Assembly: GCA_014728225.1 (NCBI GenBank)
Contig: WJLX01000126.1
Location: forward strand, 1 to 32,413
Length of the DNA: 32,413 nucleotides
Origin: Candidatus Coatesbacteria bacterium
GTDB taxonomy: Bacteria; RBG-13-66-14
Reading direction: 5' to 3'
Positions within the stretch are counted from its first letter, which is position 1. Each line of letters opens with the position of its first letter. This document shows positions 10,286 through 31,368 of the stretch, piece after piece. A program made the position numbers and the translations under genes. Under the pieces are notes generated by a model. It was not told where the DNA came from. It did no database searches and was given only the letters and a program-made list of their open reading frames with translations.

Positions 10286-10474
10286 GGCCGGGAAAAACAG
10301 CCCCGGTTTGAAAACGTCGGGGGAACCTGCCGAACCCCGGAACCGGCACGGTTTTTGCATCTCGGCGACCGTTGGAACGAGGATAACGGTCGGCCTCCGC
10401 AAAAACCGTGCCGGTTCCGGGGTTCGGGCGTTGCGGGTCGTCCGCGGCGGGGCGTGGGGCTGTTTTTCCCGGCC
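10286..10474 (+). repeat. Nested inverted-repeat element, copy 1
   Basis: The outer arms are a perfect 19-bp inverted repeat, GGCCGGGAAAAACAGCCCC at 10286-10304 against 10456-10474. The inner arms are a perfect 29-bp inverted repeat at 10330-10358 and 10399-10427, containing GGCACGGTTTTTGC. The 40-nt centre forms an apical hairpin: GGCGACCGTT pairs with AACGGTCGGCC with one bulged base, and the loop is GGAACGAGGAT. The element begins 6 nt after the radical SAM stop codon and is in sense orientation to that gene, as judged by the apical sequence. T runs lie inside the 5' arms, so it is not an ordinary terminator. Confidence 0.92.
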
Positions 10475-13555: not shown

Positions 13556-13740
13556 CGGAACGACCGCGGCGACGGAACGGCGGCGCCCGCCGGGACGAAG
13601 CGCGGAACCGGCACGGTTTTTGCGGAGGCGCCGCGTTGATCACGTTCCAACGGGCGCCGAGATGCAAAAACCGTGCCGGTTCCGCGCCCGTGCCTGACGG
13701 ATTGACTGTGAGGTTTGGCTGGATCGCCGCGGTCGTTCCG
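13556..13740 (-). repeat. Nested inverted-repeat element, copy 2 (minus orientation)
   Basis: Outer perfect 17-bp arms CGGAACGACCGCGGCGA (13556-13572) / 13724-13740. Inner perfect 24-bp arms at 13600-13623 and 13664-13687, with GGCACGGTTTTTGC. The 40-nt centre matches the other copies only when read on the minus strand: GGCGCCCGTT pairs with AACGCGGCGCC with one bulge, and the loop is GGAACGTGATC. On that strand it lies 40 nt beyond the stop codon of the radical SAM gene (13781-14638), so it is again 3' and sense. Its outer arm has a different sequence from copies 1, 3 and 4 but is still perfectly paired. Confidence 0.9.
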
Positions 13741-14821: not shown

Positions 14822-15541
14822 TACCTATAGGCATTATCACCTAATTATGAACAAGCGCGAAGTATGGTCCTGAGAATGTATAGCGCGTTTTCGTCGTCTC
14901 GATGGTTGAAGCGGAACGACCTTTCACGGATAAAGAGTCTGAAGTTACGCTTGAATCCTTTATGGCAGGCTTTTTGGCGGCGTTTGGCGTAGCCCCAGAC
15001 CAACTAGATGCCGTTTATGCTTATCCCGCCGTTGGCGAACTCTTCCTGGTGCTTGATCCGCCTGTGGTGGAAGCCCTTGAGTGACAGCTGCTTATAGCCC
15101 CGCCGGCCGTCGGCGTATCGGTGTAGCTGGTCGGGTCGAGCGCGGCTTGGCGAGCGGCGGCGCGGCGCCGGCGGATTAGCTTCTAGTGGCGATATGCCGT
15201 ATTGCGATGGTCACCAAGTCCGTTGCGACCCGCGCCGCCGGGACGCCGAGCCGGAACAGACGGGCTATCTCACTGCGTTTTTTCCGGCGGCGGCGCGTTG
15301 CGGCGCCTCGGGGACGACGCTTGAACAACTTGCCGCATCGCTTGCACTGATGCCGTCCGTCGGCGCAGCGCTAGTGATAGCGGTAGTTGTACTGGGACGG
15401 TTGGCGTGCCGCTCCCCCGTCCCGCTCTTCCCCGCCACATTGCCCCCCTCGTCGGTGGCGGGCTGACAGACCCGTTCACGCCGCTATAGGAAGTCAACTG
15501 CAACAGCTGATGTTCATCTTCTGCGATGATCTCTACCTATA
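14822..15541 (-). mobile_element. Internally deleted IS1595-type element with 8-bp target duplication
   Basis: The element is 14830-15533 (704 bp), flanked by exact 8-bp direct repeats TACCTATA (14822-14829 and 15534-15541), the target-site length expected for IS1595. The ends are GGCATTATCAC on the left and, read inward, GAGATCATCGC on the right; other copies read GGGATTATCAC and GGGATCATCAC. The transposase remnant on the minus strand shows a zinc-ribbon region, a helix-turn-helix region, then directly the last DDE part (RRIKHQEEFANGG, then FNHRDDENALYILRTILRA). It is broken by several stops and frameshifts. The region with the first catalytic Asp is missing. The short + strand frames at 14902 and 15194 are shadows. 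Confidence 0.82.
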
Positions 15542-18431: not shown

Positions 18432-18627
18432 AGCCCCGTTGAAAAACAGTTCACGGACCAGCGGACGATGGTCAGCCACCGCCGCCGGAACTGGCACGGT
18501 TTTTGCTTCTCGGCGAACGTTGGAGCTTTACTCAACGGTTCGCCTCCGCAAAAACCGTGCCAGTTCCGGCGGTGGAGCGTCGTGGCCGTCGCCGATCTTA
18601 GGCGGCAGTTTTTCAACGGGGCTTCAG
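18428..18627 (+). repeat. Nested inverted-repeat element, copy 3
   Basis: Outer perfect 20-bp arms CTGAAGCCCCGTTGAAAAAC (18428-18447) / 18608-18627. Inner perfect 25-bp arms at 18482-18506 and 18548-18572, with GGCACGGTTTTTGC. The centre is 41 nt: GGCGAACGTT pairs with AACGGTTCGCC with one bulge. The left outer arm contains the stop codon of the GNAT gene, so the element starts inside the coding sequence and is sense to it. Relative to copies 1 and 2, the inner arms carry a C-G to T-A pair change on both sides (GGAACTGGC / GCCAGTTCC). Confidence 0.92.
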
Positions 18628-22729: not shown

Positions 22730-23115
22730 AATGGAGCAGTTTATCCTGCAGGTCGTCGAGACAACGGTCGTCCTGCCTGGGGTTGAAGCGGAACGATCTT
22801 TCACGGATAGCGAGCCTTAAGTAACACTTGAACCCGCCGTGGTCGGCTGTCAGCCGTCGCCGGCGAACGACCGGCTTCTTGTCGTCATCGACGCGCCTGT
22901 AGTAACGATATGCCGTATCGCGCCGGCTGCCCGGGTTCTTGGCGATCCGCGCCGCCGGGACGCACGGCCGGAATGGGCGAGCGCGTTGAGGGTCAGCTCG
23001 AGACAGCTTCGTCTTGGGCGCTGTGGACATTTCTTGCCGCATCTCTTGCGGCTACATCGACCAGCGGCCACCTCGCAGGGCTGCCGATGGTTACATTAGG
23101 GGCAACTAATCCACC
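22730..23115 (-). pseudogene. IS1595-type transposase relic, internally deleted
   Basis: The minus strand shows, in two frames, a zinc-ribbon remnant (RKRCGKKCP), the helix-turn-helix (VPAARIAKN, DTAYRYYRRV) and then directly the last DDE part (DHGGFKCYLRLAIRERSFRF, NPRQDDRCLDDLQD). The catalytic core and the HINGIENF block are both absent, a larger deletion than in the 14.8, 23.3 and 27.5 kb copies. Terminal repeats were not found. Confidence 0.72.
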
Positions 23116-23264: not shown

Positions 23265-24255
23265 ATTCTTAGAAAGGCGGTTGGAAGAGGGCAGTCGGGT
23301 ACATTGACCTTTCGTTTGGGATTATCACCTAGTTATGACCAAGCGCGAAGTCTGCTCCTGAGGTAGTTTAGCGCGTTTTCGGCGTCTCGATGGATGAAGC
23401 TGAACGACCTTTCAGGGATGAAGAGTCCGAAGCTGTGATTGAAGCCGTCGTGGCAGGCTTTTCGGCGGCGTTTGGCGTCGCCCCGGAAGTTCTCGATACG
23501 ATTGATGTTTATCCCGCCATCAGCGAAATCCCGTTGGTGGCTGAAGCGCTTGTGGTGGAAGCCGTTGAGTGACGGTTTCGTCCAGACCCGCCGGCCTTCG
23601 GCGTAGCGGTGTAGACGGTCGGCTCGAACTCGGCCGACGAGCGATTTGCCGTATTGCGCCGGCTGCCCAAATCCCCGGCGGCTTGGACGGTCGGGACGCC
23701 GAGCCGGAACAGACGCGCAGTCTCGGTGCGTTTTACCGGCGGCGGCGCGTTGCGACGCCCCCGGGGATGACGCTTGAACGACTTGCCGCGAGGCTTGCAT
23801 TTTTTAACGTCCCCTCGGCGCGGCGGTAGTGATAACGGTTGTTGCAGCCGGGACGGTTGACGTGCCGGTTCCCCCGTCCCGCTCTTCCCCGCCACATTGC
23901 CCGCCTCGATCGGTGGCGGGCTGACAGACCCGTCCACGCCGCTGGAAGAAACCAACGGCAACAGCTGATGTTCAGCTTCTGTGATGATCCCGTTTGTTTT
24001 AGCGGCGCTTGAGGAAAGTCAAGTTGGGAAAACGTTTCTAACGAGCCGGGCCGTTCGGTCCACCGTCGGGCGCTGGTAATCTCCTCAGGCAACATCCTTC
24101 TGATATCATTCTACATCTACCATTCAGGACCGGGCATCGACCACCGTTAAAGGTCGGACAAGCCGATACCGCTAAAGTCCTCTAGCGGCTTTCTTAGCGA
24201 TAGGCAACGAAGGTCGCCACTTGTAGCGGAATGGTCCGGTAGCGTCTGGGATGTC
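23265..24255. repeat. Dispersed repeat R2, copy B, split by an IS derivative
   Basis: 23265-23317 and 23992-24255 together align with copy A at 15546-15870. The IS derivative at 23318-23991 sits inside. Matching words across the junction include AGAAAGGCGGTTGGAA before the IS and CCACCGTCGGGCGCTG and AAGTCCTCTAGC after it. The bases either side of the insertion (TTTCGTTT and GTTTGTTT) look like a decayed 8-bp target duplication. No coding function seen. Confidence 0.62.
23318..23991 (-). mobile_element. Internally deleted IS1595-type element inserted in repeat R2
   Basis: 674 bp with ends GGGATTATCAC (23318 onward) and, read inward from 23991, GGGATCATCAC. The minus-strand transposase remnant has the N-terminal region, a helix-turn-helix, a YRYYRRVRADRLHRYAEG junction, then GFHHKRFSHQRDFADGG, INRIENFRGDAKRRRKACHD and SFIHRDAENALNYLRSRLRA. 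The segment between the helix-turn-helix and the second catalytic Asp region is missing, the same deletion as at 14830-15533 and 27548-28246. Reading frames are broken. Confidence 0.8.
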
Positions 24256-26964: not shown

Positions 26965-27153
26965 AACCTTTGAAAAACAGCCTAAGGACTGCTTGACGGG
27001 GACGCATGTACGGCCGCCGGAACTGGCACGGTTTTTGCATCTCGACGACCGTTGGCGCGAGGCTAACGGTTCGTCTCCGCAAAAACCGTGCCAGTTCCGG
27101 CTCGCGGGCTATGCATTAGGTTTTTGAGTTCGCCGGGCTGTTTTTCAAAGGTT
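26965..27153 (+). repeat. Nested inverted-repeat element, copy 4
   Basis: Outer perfect 18-bp arms AACCTTTGAAAAACAGCC (26965-26982) / 27136-27153. Inner perfect 23-bp arms at 27016-27038 and 27079-27101, with GGCACGGTTTTTGC. The 40-nt centre: GACGACCGTT pairs with AACGGTTCGTC with one bulge, loop GGCGCGAGGCT. The second pair of the apical stem is A-T here and G-C in the other copies, a compensatory change. The orientation is +. It lies 82 nt beyond the tRNA terminator, so this copy is not directly behind a protein gene. Confidence 0.9.
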
Positions 27154-27254: not shown

Positions 27255-27452
27255 TTAGTCTTCGTGCTTGGCGATGGCTTCCTCGACGCCGGCGAGTTCC
27301 TGCTCAAGTTCAGTCTTGTACTGTTTGAGCATTTCGAGTTTTTCGGCTTGCGAGCGGAAGCGTCGGGGGATGCAGAGTCCGGGTCCGTGGTGTTCGTGGG
27401 GGTGTCTGCCGGGATGGCAGTGATGGGGTTGGGGGTGATGGTGATGGAACAT
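27255..27452 (-). CDS. Small His-rich protein, DUF5320-like
   Basis: 65 aa from ATG 27452, chosen because AAAGGAG sits 6 nt upstream; an ATG at 27539 would add 29 residues lacking a ribosome site and would start inside the promoter. The first 30 residues hold 12 His, in FHHHHPQPHHCHPGRHPHEHH, plus two Cys, a probable metal-binding segment. The rest is one charged coiled coil (QAEKLEMLKQYKTELEQELA, then GVEEAIAKHE) like the C-terminus of DUF5320 proteins. It has its own promoter (27511-27539) and is upstream-linked to an ArsR regulator now separated from it by an IS. Metal binding or cofactor-related function is inferred. Confidence 0.82.
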   Translation of the reverse strand: MFHHHHPQPHHCHPGRHPHEHHGPGLCIPRRFRSQAEKLEMLKQYKTELEQELAGVEEAIAKHED

Positions 27453-27510
27453 GGGTTCTCCTTTGGGGTTGGCTTGTTGGGTTGGCGTCAGTCGTTTGGC
27501 CGGCGAAAGC

Positions 27511-27539
27511 ATAGTATTTTCGTAACTACTTAATTTCAA
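27511..27539 (-). promoter_or_regulatory. Promoter and possible ArsR site of the His-rich gene
   Basis: Minus strand: TTGAAA (27539-27534), 17-bp spacer, TACTAT (27516-27511). The spacer holds TAACTACTT (+ strand, 27523-27531), a 9-mer that also occurs, in the opposite orientation, just downstream of the arsR-type gene's -10 box (28692-28700). The promoter ends 8 bp from the IS insertion and is intact. Confidence 0.6.
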
Positions 27540-27547
27540 ATGAAAAA

Positions 27548-28246
27548 GGGATCATCACACAAGATGAACATCAGCTATTGCAGTTGGGATCTTCCAGCGT
27601 CGTGAACGGGTCTGTCATCCCGCCACCGATCGAGGGGGGCAATGTGGCGGGGAAGAGCGGGACGGGGGACCGGCACGCCAACCGTCCCAGATGTAACTAT
27701 CGCTATCACTAGCGCTGCGCCGACGGGCGGCATAGGTGCAAGCGTCGCGGCAAGCTGTTCAACCGTCATCCCCGTGGGCGTCGCAACGCGCCGCCGCCGG
27801 CAAAACGCGGCGAGATAGCCCGCCTGTTCCGGTTCAACGTCCCGGCGGCGCGGGTCGCCAAGGACCTGGGCATCCACCGCAATACGGCTTATCGCTACTG
27901 CAAGCGAATTCGCCGGAGCCGCGCCGTCGCTCGCCAGGCCGCGTTGGATTCGATCGTCTACTCCGATGGATACACGGCCGATAAGAAACTGTCGCTCAGC
28001 GTCTTCCACCACAGGCGGATCAATGACCGGGAAGAGTTCGCCAACGGAAAGAACCATATCAACGGTATCGAGAACTTCCGGGGCTTCGCCAAACGCCACC
28101 TAAAAGCCTATCACGGTGGCTTTAAACGCAACTACAGACTCTTGATCACTGAATGATCGTTCAGCTTCAACCATCGAGACGACGAAAACGCGCTATACAT
28201 TCTCAGGACCATACTTCGCGCTTGGTCATAATTCGGTGATAATCCC
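27548..28246 (+). mobile_element. Internally deleted IS1595-type element between arsR-type and His-rich genes
   Basis: 699 bp with ends GGGATCATCAC (27548) and, read inward from 28246, GGGATTATCACC. GAAAAA flanks both sides (27542-27547 and 28247-28252) as a probable partial target duplication. The + strand remnant is the best-preserved deletion copy: CNYRYH, RCADGRHRCKRRGKLF (zinc ribbon), LFRFNVPAARVAKDLGIHRN and TAYRYCKRI (helix-turn-helix), then directly SIVYSDGYTADKKLSL, FHHRRINDREEF, HINGIENFRGFAKRHLKAYH and a stop at 28156. The first catalytic Asp region is absent, so it cannot transpose itself. The minus-strand frame at 27575-28099 is a shadow. Confidence 0.85.
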
Positions 28247-28268
28247 GAAAAAGGAACGGCCGATATCA

Positions 28269-28679
28269 TCAGCTATTGTCCGCTTCTGTTTCCAGTTCAG
28301 CGATCCGTTGCTCGATCCGGGCCAGCCTCTGTTTGAGTTGGGCGCGATGCTTGCGCAGTTGTTGGAGGTCCATCCGGGCGGGGTCGAGGCCGTGGAAGCT
28401 CTTGACGCCGCAGGCTTCGCCCAGGGAGCGCAGGCAGACGTCGAGGCTGCGATGGTTGATGTGGTAGGGCACGTGGTAGCCGTCGCGTTCGCCCTCCACC
28501 AGACCGGTCTGGCGGAGCACTCGCAGGTGTTGAGAGACGGCTGCGGTGGAGATGCCCAAAGCCTCGCCCAGTTTGACGGCGCCCAGGGGTCCGTGATGGT
28601 GCAGGATCCGCAGGATGGCCATCCGGGTGCGTCCGCCCAGGACCTTGAAGACCTCGGCTGGATCCAGCTTGTGGGTCAT
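28269..28679 (-). CDS. ArsR/SmtB-family transcriptional regulator
   Basis: 136 aa. Winged helix-turn-helix repressor, usually released from DNA by a metal or thiol signal. Landmarks are FKVLGGRTRMAILRIL (first helix), GISTAAVSQHLRVLRQTGLV (recognition helix) and ERDGYHVPYHIN (wing). Classic ELCVCD metal residues are absent; C82 and C90 and several His (27-29, 69, 73, 76) are possible ligands. The last 30 residues form a coiled coil. The promoter at 28713-28741 is a perfect consensus, so without repression it should be strong. The likely target is its own gene and the His-rich protein downstream. Confidence 0.9.
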   Translation of the reverse strand: MTHKLDPAEVFKVLGGRTRMAILRILHHHGPLGAVKLGEALGISTAAVSQHLRVLRQTGLVEGERDGYHVPYHINHRSLDVCLRSLGEACGVKSFHGLDPARMDLQQLRKHRAQLKQRLARIEQRIAELETEADNS

Positions 28680-28691
28680 GGTGGTCCAGTG

Positions 28692-28741
28692 AAGTAGTTA
28701 AGCAACATCTAAATTATAGCCTGAGCTGGAGGGGTTGTCAA
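28692..28741 (-). promoter_or_regulatory. Perfect consensus promoter of the ArsR gene with candidate operator
   Basis: Minus strand: TTGACA (28741-28736), exactly 17 bp, TATAAT (28718-28713). The candidate operator AAGTAGTTA (+ strand 28692-28700) lies between the -10 and the start codon, where a repressor would block transcription. The same 9-mer, inverted, is in the His-rich gene's promoter spacer. Confidence 0.8.
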
Positions 28742-30868: not shown

Positions 30869-30926
30869 GGAGGGGTATGTCTTGAGGCAGCCGGACGACG
30901 AACAACCTCAGATCAACATTCTTTTA

Positions 30927-31368
30927 GGGATTATCACCGAATAATGAACGAGCGCGAAGTCTGCTCCCGAGGTAGTTGAACACGTTTTCGGCGTCTCGAT
31001 GGTTGAAGCGGAACGACCTTTCACGGATAACGAGCCTGAGGTTGCGTTCGAAGCCAGCGTGATAGGCTTTGCGGCGGCGTTTGGCGTCGCCCCGGAAGCT
31101 TCGAGGCCGTTGATATGCCCCTTGACGTCAACCAGTGTCCTGTCATGATCGATGCGCCTGTGGTGGAAGCCGCTGGGCGACAGTTTCTTGTGGGCCCGCC
31201 GGCCGTCGGCGCAGCGATAATTGCCTTTGGGGACATTTGACGTGCCGCTCCCCCGACCCGCTCTTCCCCGCCACATTGCCCCCCCTTTTGGTGGCGGGAT
31301 GATAAACTCGTTCACGCAGATATAAGTACCCAACTGCAATAGCTGATGCTCATCTTCTGTTATGATCC
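30927..31368 (-). mobile_element. Short IS1595-type element, heavily deleted
   Basis: 442 bp with ends GGGATTATCAC (30927) and, read inward from 31368, GGATCATAAC. The minus-strand remnant joins a zinc-ribbon fragment (NYRCADGRRAHKKLS) straight to GFHHRRIDHDRTLVDVKG, HINGL, then DAKRRRKAYHAGFERNLRL and FNHRDAENVFNYLGSRLRAR in a second frame. The helix-turn-helix and the whole catalytic core are gone. No target duplication is left. 31369-31571 shows no supported feature. Confidence 0.78.

Follow-up and report, generated by a model that had tools for sequence, protein, structure and literature searches.

Two genes of a Candidatus Coatesbacteria bacterium, one for an ArsR-type regulator and the other for a small histidine-rich protein, lie in tandem on either side of an insertion element and carry the same short sequence in both of their promoters. 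Is this a coincidence, or do the genes form one regulated unit, and what would such a unit respond to? We addressed this question in the window, by which we mean the whole stretch of DNA that was analysed (32,413 nt, contig WJLX01000126.1 of assembly GCA_014728225.1; the genome comprises 2.96 Mb). The reading we prefer, at a probability of about 70%, is a self-regulated two-gene homeostasis unit in which the ArsR protein controls itself and a metallothionein-like sequestering protein via two operators.

A regulator gene and a small gene separated by an insertion element

Both genes are encoded on the minus strand and their reading frames are open over the full length in the ORF list. The ArsR/SmtB-type repressor gene occupies positions 28269–28679 and encodes 136 amino acids. 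The gene for the small Cys/His-rich protein (27255–27452) encodes 65 amino acids; its start was placed at the ATG at 27452 because this codon is preceded by AAAGGAG, and the upstream TTG given in the ORF list was rejected. The arsR promoter is composed of a −35 element TTGACA (28736–28741) and a −10 element TATAAT (28713–28718) separated by 17 bp, just as a first-pass annotation of the window had described it, and no second perfect TTGACA-N16-18-TATAAT occurs in the window. For the small gene, the promoter, also on the minus strand and with a 17 bp spacer, consists of TTGAAA (27534–27539) and TACTAT (27511–27516).

The insertion element recognized between the two genes in the first-pass annotation is an ISXO2/IS1595-like element of 697 bp at 27549–28245, its ends being set at these positions because copies elsewhere span 1–697. 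It is flanked by a left target duplication TGAAAAAG (27541–27548) and a right one CGAAAAAG (28246–28253) equal to the left copy at seven of eight positions. On the arsR strand, the right duplication sits in a T-rich stretch past the arsR stop, as found in relatives. A 12-base stretch inside the element (CATCAGCTATTG near 27568) is matched in the region of the arsR stop; this match was considered as target duplication and rejected. The element contains a 70-aa C-terminal transposase fragment (DDE_Tnp_IS1595, 31.0 versus 27 bits) and no full-length transposase frame for it is present in the ORF list. At least 56 matches to the element, full-length and partial, were found on many contigs of the same genome (40 of 121 candidates scored). 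Within the window, further full or partial copies with about 76–84% identity are located at 14833–15531, 23319–23990, 30922–31368 and 22894–22962.

Removal of the element and one copy of the target duplication would place the genes 111 bp apart, in line with the initial estimate of about 110 bp. The element begins ten bases past the small gene's −35, which ends at 27539, and leaves promoter and operator of the small gene intact, so co-regulation should survive the insertion. The nearest copy of the small protein, found in a related genome (G001), is 65% identical. The neighbourhood there is alike: past the small gene lies a gene resembling, by eye, the DUF5916 gene of the window.

The regulator combines a winged-helix fold with an alpha5 cysteine pair

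The 136-aa protein matches the ArsR profiles NCBIfam NF033788 (74.2 bits, cut-off 55) and Pfam PF01022 (35.0 bits, cut-off 22). An AlphaFold model of the monomer (pLDDT 88.7) predicts a winged helix with alpha5 at residues 76–90 and a long C-terminal helix at 105–135. Foldseek searches with this model returned SrnR (7p6f) as the best match and also SmtB, CzrA, CadC, SqrR (6o8k) and 6j05, which we take to be AfArsR.

Classic metal sites of ArsR/SmtB regulators are marked by CxC in alpha3 and DxHx10HxxE in alpha5. By reading, neither motif is present in the window ArsR, and the earlier statement that the usual metal residues are lacking holds to that extent. It overlooked a Cx7C pair, C82 and C90, at the C-terminal end of alpha5 that is invariant in 8 aligned sequences. 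The majority of distant relatives possess CxCGC at the second cysteine; L038, L041 and L043 have Tyr at the first. As alpha5 carries two cysteines in the window protein and four in the majority of distant relatives, the ligand may differ between them.

Predicted operators are found at both promoters

The 9-mer TAACTACTT noticed in both promoters is located at 27523–27531 on the plus strand and 28692–28700 on the minus strand. The claim was correct and understated: the 9-mer is part of a 24-bp imperfect palindrome (27510–27533 and 28690–28713) that represents the meaningful unit. Predicted operator A (27510–27533, sense TTAAGTAGTTACGAAAATACTATG) covers the −10 of the small gene together with the whole spacer up to the −35. 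Predicted operator B (28690–28713, sense TTTAGATGTTGCTTAACTACTTCA) begins at the last base of the arsR −10, spans the arsR start region and has a weak left arm (TTTAGAT).

To define the motif independently of the window, we carried out a de novo palindromic expectation-maximisation search on 81 promoter and intergenic stretches from 42 loci (L035–L076) in other genomes. These loci were drawn from at least 68 ArsR relatives in a scan of named genomes; the 26 weakest (L077–L102, mostly actinobacterial) were left out. Keeping the phylum of the window out of the training set rests on a contig comparison (in 14 genomes of that phylum, the ArsR matches lie on contigs whose lengths are unlike those of the training contigs), and the DNA matches between training loci and loci of that phylum are short arsR coding pieces only. 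The resulting motif, TAAGTAtaTgcgcAtaTACTTA, corresponds to the palindrome aTAAGTATaTgcgcAtATACTTAt with a log-likelihood of 543.9 at width 24, versus 70.9 and 67.6 for two letter-shuffled sets for which smaller runs were used (4 versus 12 restarts, 30 versus 60 iterations). Among the 32,390 positions of the window, this motif ranks operator A first and operator B second, and the two ranks hold at all four widths scanned (16, 20, 22 and 24). Dinucleotide shuffles of the promoter regions reached the observed score in 0 of 5000 cases for operator A and in 1 of 5000 for operator B.

These results bear on the simplest explanation, that two AT-rich promoters share the 9-mer by chance, for which the shortness of the motif and the imperfection of operator B could be cited. 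The odds of one in ten given in the first-pass annotation are adequate for an arbitrary shared 9-mer but not for an independently learned motif that places the two sites at the top of the window. Only five copies of TAACTACTT occur in the whole genome, two of them at the arsR/small-gene locus, and the three other places are without such a palindrome (best motif scores per 4-kb stretch −1.6, −1.7 and −7.9). Considering this rarity, the ranks, the shuffles and the conservation in relatives described below, we rejected a chance match as scarcely credible.

Specificity was analyzed at the genome scale with a stricter model built from the sequences of 24 sites, none of them from the genome of the window, in nine whole genomes at E ≤ 10. 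The model yielded 11 matches at 9 places, all at the arsR/small-gene locus, and eight of the nine genomes contain one. Five genomes (G001, G004, G005, G006 and G051) had supplied model sites, so that a match there is expected; G000, G003, G037 and G045 had supplied none. No match at E ≤ 10 was obtained in G004 despite its contribution of a site. The single match in the window's own genome is operator A (E 1.0), operator B falling below the limit of this model, and the other ArsR gene of that genome (C53, locus L005) is without such an operator site. In the genomes searched, occurrence of the predicted operator is locus-specific.

The gene pair and its sites recur in other genomes

A protein search of 61 genomes for ArsR relatives identified four close members (G003–G006), a contig-end fragment in G001 and three more distant members (G051, G037 and G045). 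At these eight loci, arsR is followed by a small Cys- or His/Cys-rich ORF and TTAAG..CTTAA-type palindromes are found nearby. The next-best match (G058) is followed by a permease-like gene, by reading, and shows no operator site. For G003–G006, which were not part of the motif training, the second site scores 14.2–21.5 bits and the site at the arsR promoter itself 8.2–16.5 bits. The second site of G001 (locus L015) lies beyond the 160 nt after arsR covered by the first motif scan; it scores 18.7 bits and precedes the His-rich gene, the next best position in that stretch reaching 2.8. The second operator begins 19–33 nt past the arsR stop in 27 of the 29 relatives having one, and 33 nt past it in the window when the element is set aside. 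Absence of the motif from relatives that keep both genes had been proposed as the result that would speak against co-regulation; the comparison finds the motif conserved, and the operators predicted in orthologous pairs support co-regulation of arsR and the His-rich gene.

An ArsR-profile search of 386 genomes returned a match at E ≤ 1e-25 in 17 and contributed nine new loci, eight of which have no DNA match to loci of the earlier scan at E ≤ 1e-30. None was used for the motif. The best site upstream of arsR is among the top two positions of its 2.4–3.4-kb locus in all nine, as is the site before the small gene in seven. In the remaining two, the small ORF begins about 22 and 39 nt past the arsR stop (by reading), so a separate promoter is not expected. 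A Cys/His-rich small ORF follows arsR in all nine (eight in the ORF list, L128 by reading). Applying one fixed filter, we detected such an ORF in 15 of the 17 loci whose regulator has Cx7C or Yx7CxCGC, the exceptions being L037, which stops at a contig edge, and L060, which fails the filter. The same filter was passed by 9 of the 25 other loci of L035–L076 and by 4 of 21 weaker ArsR matches, one of which (L018) looks like an arsR/small-gene unit.

Two of the weaker ArsR controls, L017 and L022, have upstream sites of 20.6 and 15.9 bits and no Cys/His-rich small ORF by the filter. The operator type is therefore wider than the gene pair and belongs to a wider ArsR clade, in which the small gene is replaced by genes for ABC transporters, for a permease or for thioredoxin (by reading). 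Neighbouring genes give no consistent function; chromate transporter and CopD each match 4 of 99 neighbour proteins. The unit recurs across several groups of bacteria that are known mostly through metagenome assemblies. Taken at the level of sequence, the pairing and the recurrence of the site in distantly related bacteria suggest a metal- or thiol-responsive unit, and the metal-response unit initially proposed is plausible.

The small proteins are rich in cysteine or histidine

The small proteins are about 20–110 amino acids long. That of the window is His-rich while many of those in relatives are Cys-rich. No match above cut-off in Pfam or NCBIfam was obtained for the 11 small proteins scanned, nor any metallothionein match in either collection at E ≤ 1, so that the term sequestering rests on composition. 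A richness in His rather than Cys points to borderline metals for the window protein. The label DUF5320-like, given in the first-pass annotation, is appropriate for the C-terminal helix, which aligns to positions 63–97 of the 99 profile positions of DUF5320 (PF17253), but the score of 15.1 bits is below the Pfam cut-off of 27 and the N-terminal half is unmatched. Among 10 relatives scanned the best score is 21.0 bits. Being short and, in the 11 cases scanned, devoid of a curated family match, many such proteins may be overlooked by automatic annotation.

Variants of the arrangement were observed. L038 and L043 encode two small proteins in tandem, a helix type followed by a CGCGCGC type, and both parts occur in one open frame in L039, which links the two kinds. 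In L044, the position of the small gene, following a good second operator, is taken by a thioredoxin-like gene (by reading). At two loci from the phylum of the window (L031 and L032), the ArsR protein is of a different sort and carries a CCC motif close to its end. The next gene encodes a further small protein with Cys pairs (MEKKLLDVNVEEKDGEY... in L031), and the two perhaps form a second unit of the ArsR/small-protein kind.

Regulator and predicted target have similar C-terminal helices

A profile comparison of ArsR tails with small-protein C-termini resulted in a match of 96% probability (E 4e-9). Controls remained lower. The reversed profile gave 3.4% and the best of 20 column shuffles 1.4%; among three textbook coiled coils the highest value was 3.8%, and nine windows of SMC coils reached no more than 43% (E 2.5e-4). 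An HMM of either set finds many members of the other, and the small protein of the window is found by the ArsR-tail HMM at E 4e-8 (68-sequence set). The tail of the window ArsR alone matches the small proteins at E 1e-4, little better than the best SMC window, and the claim of helix-likeness therefore rests on the families.

The co-occurrence of tail and helix was compared in 34 pairs, L015, L018, L042 and L128 being left out. Of 29 pairs with a Cx7C regulator, 13 possess both tail and helix, 10 neither, 5 the tail only and 1 the helix only (Fisher p 0.0017, uncorrected for kinship); the sole helix-only pair has a weak ArsR-tail match (E 0.003). Outside the Cx7C group, all five pairs have the small-protein helix and no ArsR tail at E < 1e-3, which speaks against a strict link. 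Many small proteins are without the C-terminal helix.

Proposed mechanism and alternative explanations

We infer the following cycle for the two-gene unit. An ArsR dimer would bind both copies of the 24-bp palindromic operator, one in the arsR promoter and the other in that of the small gene, repressing both genes. A soft metal, metalloid or other thiol-reactive signal would bind C82 and C90 at the alpha5 C-terminus (CxCGC in the majority of distant relatives), upon which ArsR would be released from the DNA and the small protein made. By sequestering or buffering the same ligand, the small protein would then allow the repressor to re-bind.

Instead of acting solely as a sponge, the small protein could team up with the repressor and dock with its C-terminal helix on that of ArsR, to relay or remove the ligand or to co-regulate, as in SrnQ-SrnR. 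We consider this possible and, on balance, doubtful. SrnR and SrnQ of Streptomyces griseus form one complex that acts on sodF, with SrnQ being nickel-responsive (PMC7055735). SrnR is the closest solved fold to the window ArsR, and in both cases an ArsR protein is paired with a protein outside known families that responds to metal (predicted in our case); in the window, however, the small gene is itself a predicted target with its own operator and a complex is only a possibility. The profile match above all controls and the association of tail and helix in Cx7C pairs, with the kinship caveat given above, argue for a partner role. Coiled coils become alike by convergence, though, and the E value of the window tail near that of the best SMC window, the five pairs with helix and no tail and the many helix-less small proteins argue against it. 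A different ligand chemistry would follow if the alpha5 Cx7C, instead of binding a transition metal, served as an arsenic-type site or as a thiol switch for persulfide or oxidants and the small protein as a thiol buffer, a reading we regard as rather unlikely. There are precedents for cysteines where the C-terminal dimerisation helix ends: the As(III) site of AfArsR is formed by Cys95, 96 and 102 at C-terminal helix ends, and SpArsR, without the third cysteine, answers to MAs(III) (PMC11868830). Against this reading, the spacing in AfArsR (CCx5C; PMC11868830) differs from Cx7C in the window and CxCGC in the majority of distant relatives. The type 2 spacing of AfArsR (C, +1, +7) is absent from the window ArsR, whose cysteines there are just C82 and C90; by reading, two members of the same ArsR family, L006 and L007, show a matching CC-x5-C. 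The window spacing also differs from that of SqrR or BigR. In favour of thiol or arsenic chemistry, the As(III)-responsive 6j05 and the sulfide-responsive SqrR are among the fold matches, the thioredoxin gene of L044 (by reading) occupies the small-gene position after a good operator and a DsrE gene precedes arsR in L036. No ars family, however, is found among the best 25 of 147 neighbour families by recurrence, and the window protein with its His rather than Cys content points elsewhere, to borderline metals.

The second palindrome might also not be the operator of a separate promoter at all and act as a transcription roadblock or attenuator after arsR, with a T-run as part of it. A run of at least six T within 45 nt past the arsR stop is present in 25 of 29 loci with a second operator and in 1 of 19 without, and several relatives show no clear −35 before the second site (by eye). 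No hairpin precedes the T-run (mean z 0.03 over 26), which is compatible with a roadblock and led us to reject a terminator. Yet in the window a good TTGAAA-17-TACTAT promoter coincides with the second site, and the T-rich stretch would fall at the position of an UP element, which makes a roadblock improbable. A T-run located 3–15 nt past the arsR stop was seen in L035, L036, L047 and others and could be either an UP element or a roadblock. The broadest interpretation joins several of these features into a widespread undescribed ligand-homeostasis class with related C-terminal helices, a target that binds its repressor (an operator pair plus a protein-protein loop) and a hairpin-less T-run at the second operator; we put it forward tentatively and doubt it as a whole.

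Relation to known systems

The closest parallels to the proposed homeostasis unit are SmtB-SmtA of Synechococcus and AzuR-NmtA of Anabaena. SmtB/ArsR regulators of metallothionein targets have an imperfect inverted repeat of about 26 bp (12-2-12) at the promoter (PMC8790569). The ArsR/SmtB fold, the tiny metal-binding target (predicted in our case) and the imperfect inverted repeat are similar. In contrast, the window genes are arranged in tandem with an operator each, neither as a divergon nor unlinked; the regulator is without the classic alpha5 His/Asp site (by reading); the operator has the form TAAGTA...TACTTA and the C-terminal helices of regulator and target are alike. The small protein matches no curated metallothionein family and is likened to SmtA in its proposed role. 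An ArsR repressor with a metallothionein-like target is thus a known kind of system, and this variant was not found described in the literature searched. Titles and the beginnings of abstracts yielded no description of the ArsR/small-protein pair, and the mentions of DUF5320 were unrelated.

What looked like a weak 9-mer coincidence has become a predicted regulon, comprising an operator, a candidate sensor site and a candidate effector. If confirmed, the unit would represent a bacterial metal or thiol buffer of a new type, equipped with a dedicated sensor, and a case for testing whether ArsR regulators can be controlled by the protein they induce.

Other repeats in the window

A palindromic element is present in four copies at 10338–10419, 13603–13684, 18486–18568 and 27018–27099. 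Its arms of 21 nt, GCAAAAACCGTGCC[AG]GTTCCG, are about 40 nt apart (8 arm matches versus 0 in 100 shuffles). The copy at 26965–27153 possesses a second, outer pair of 18-nt arms. The element resembles REP- or MITE-type repeat families.
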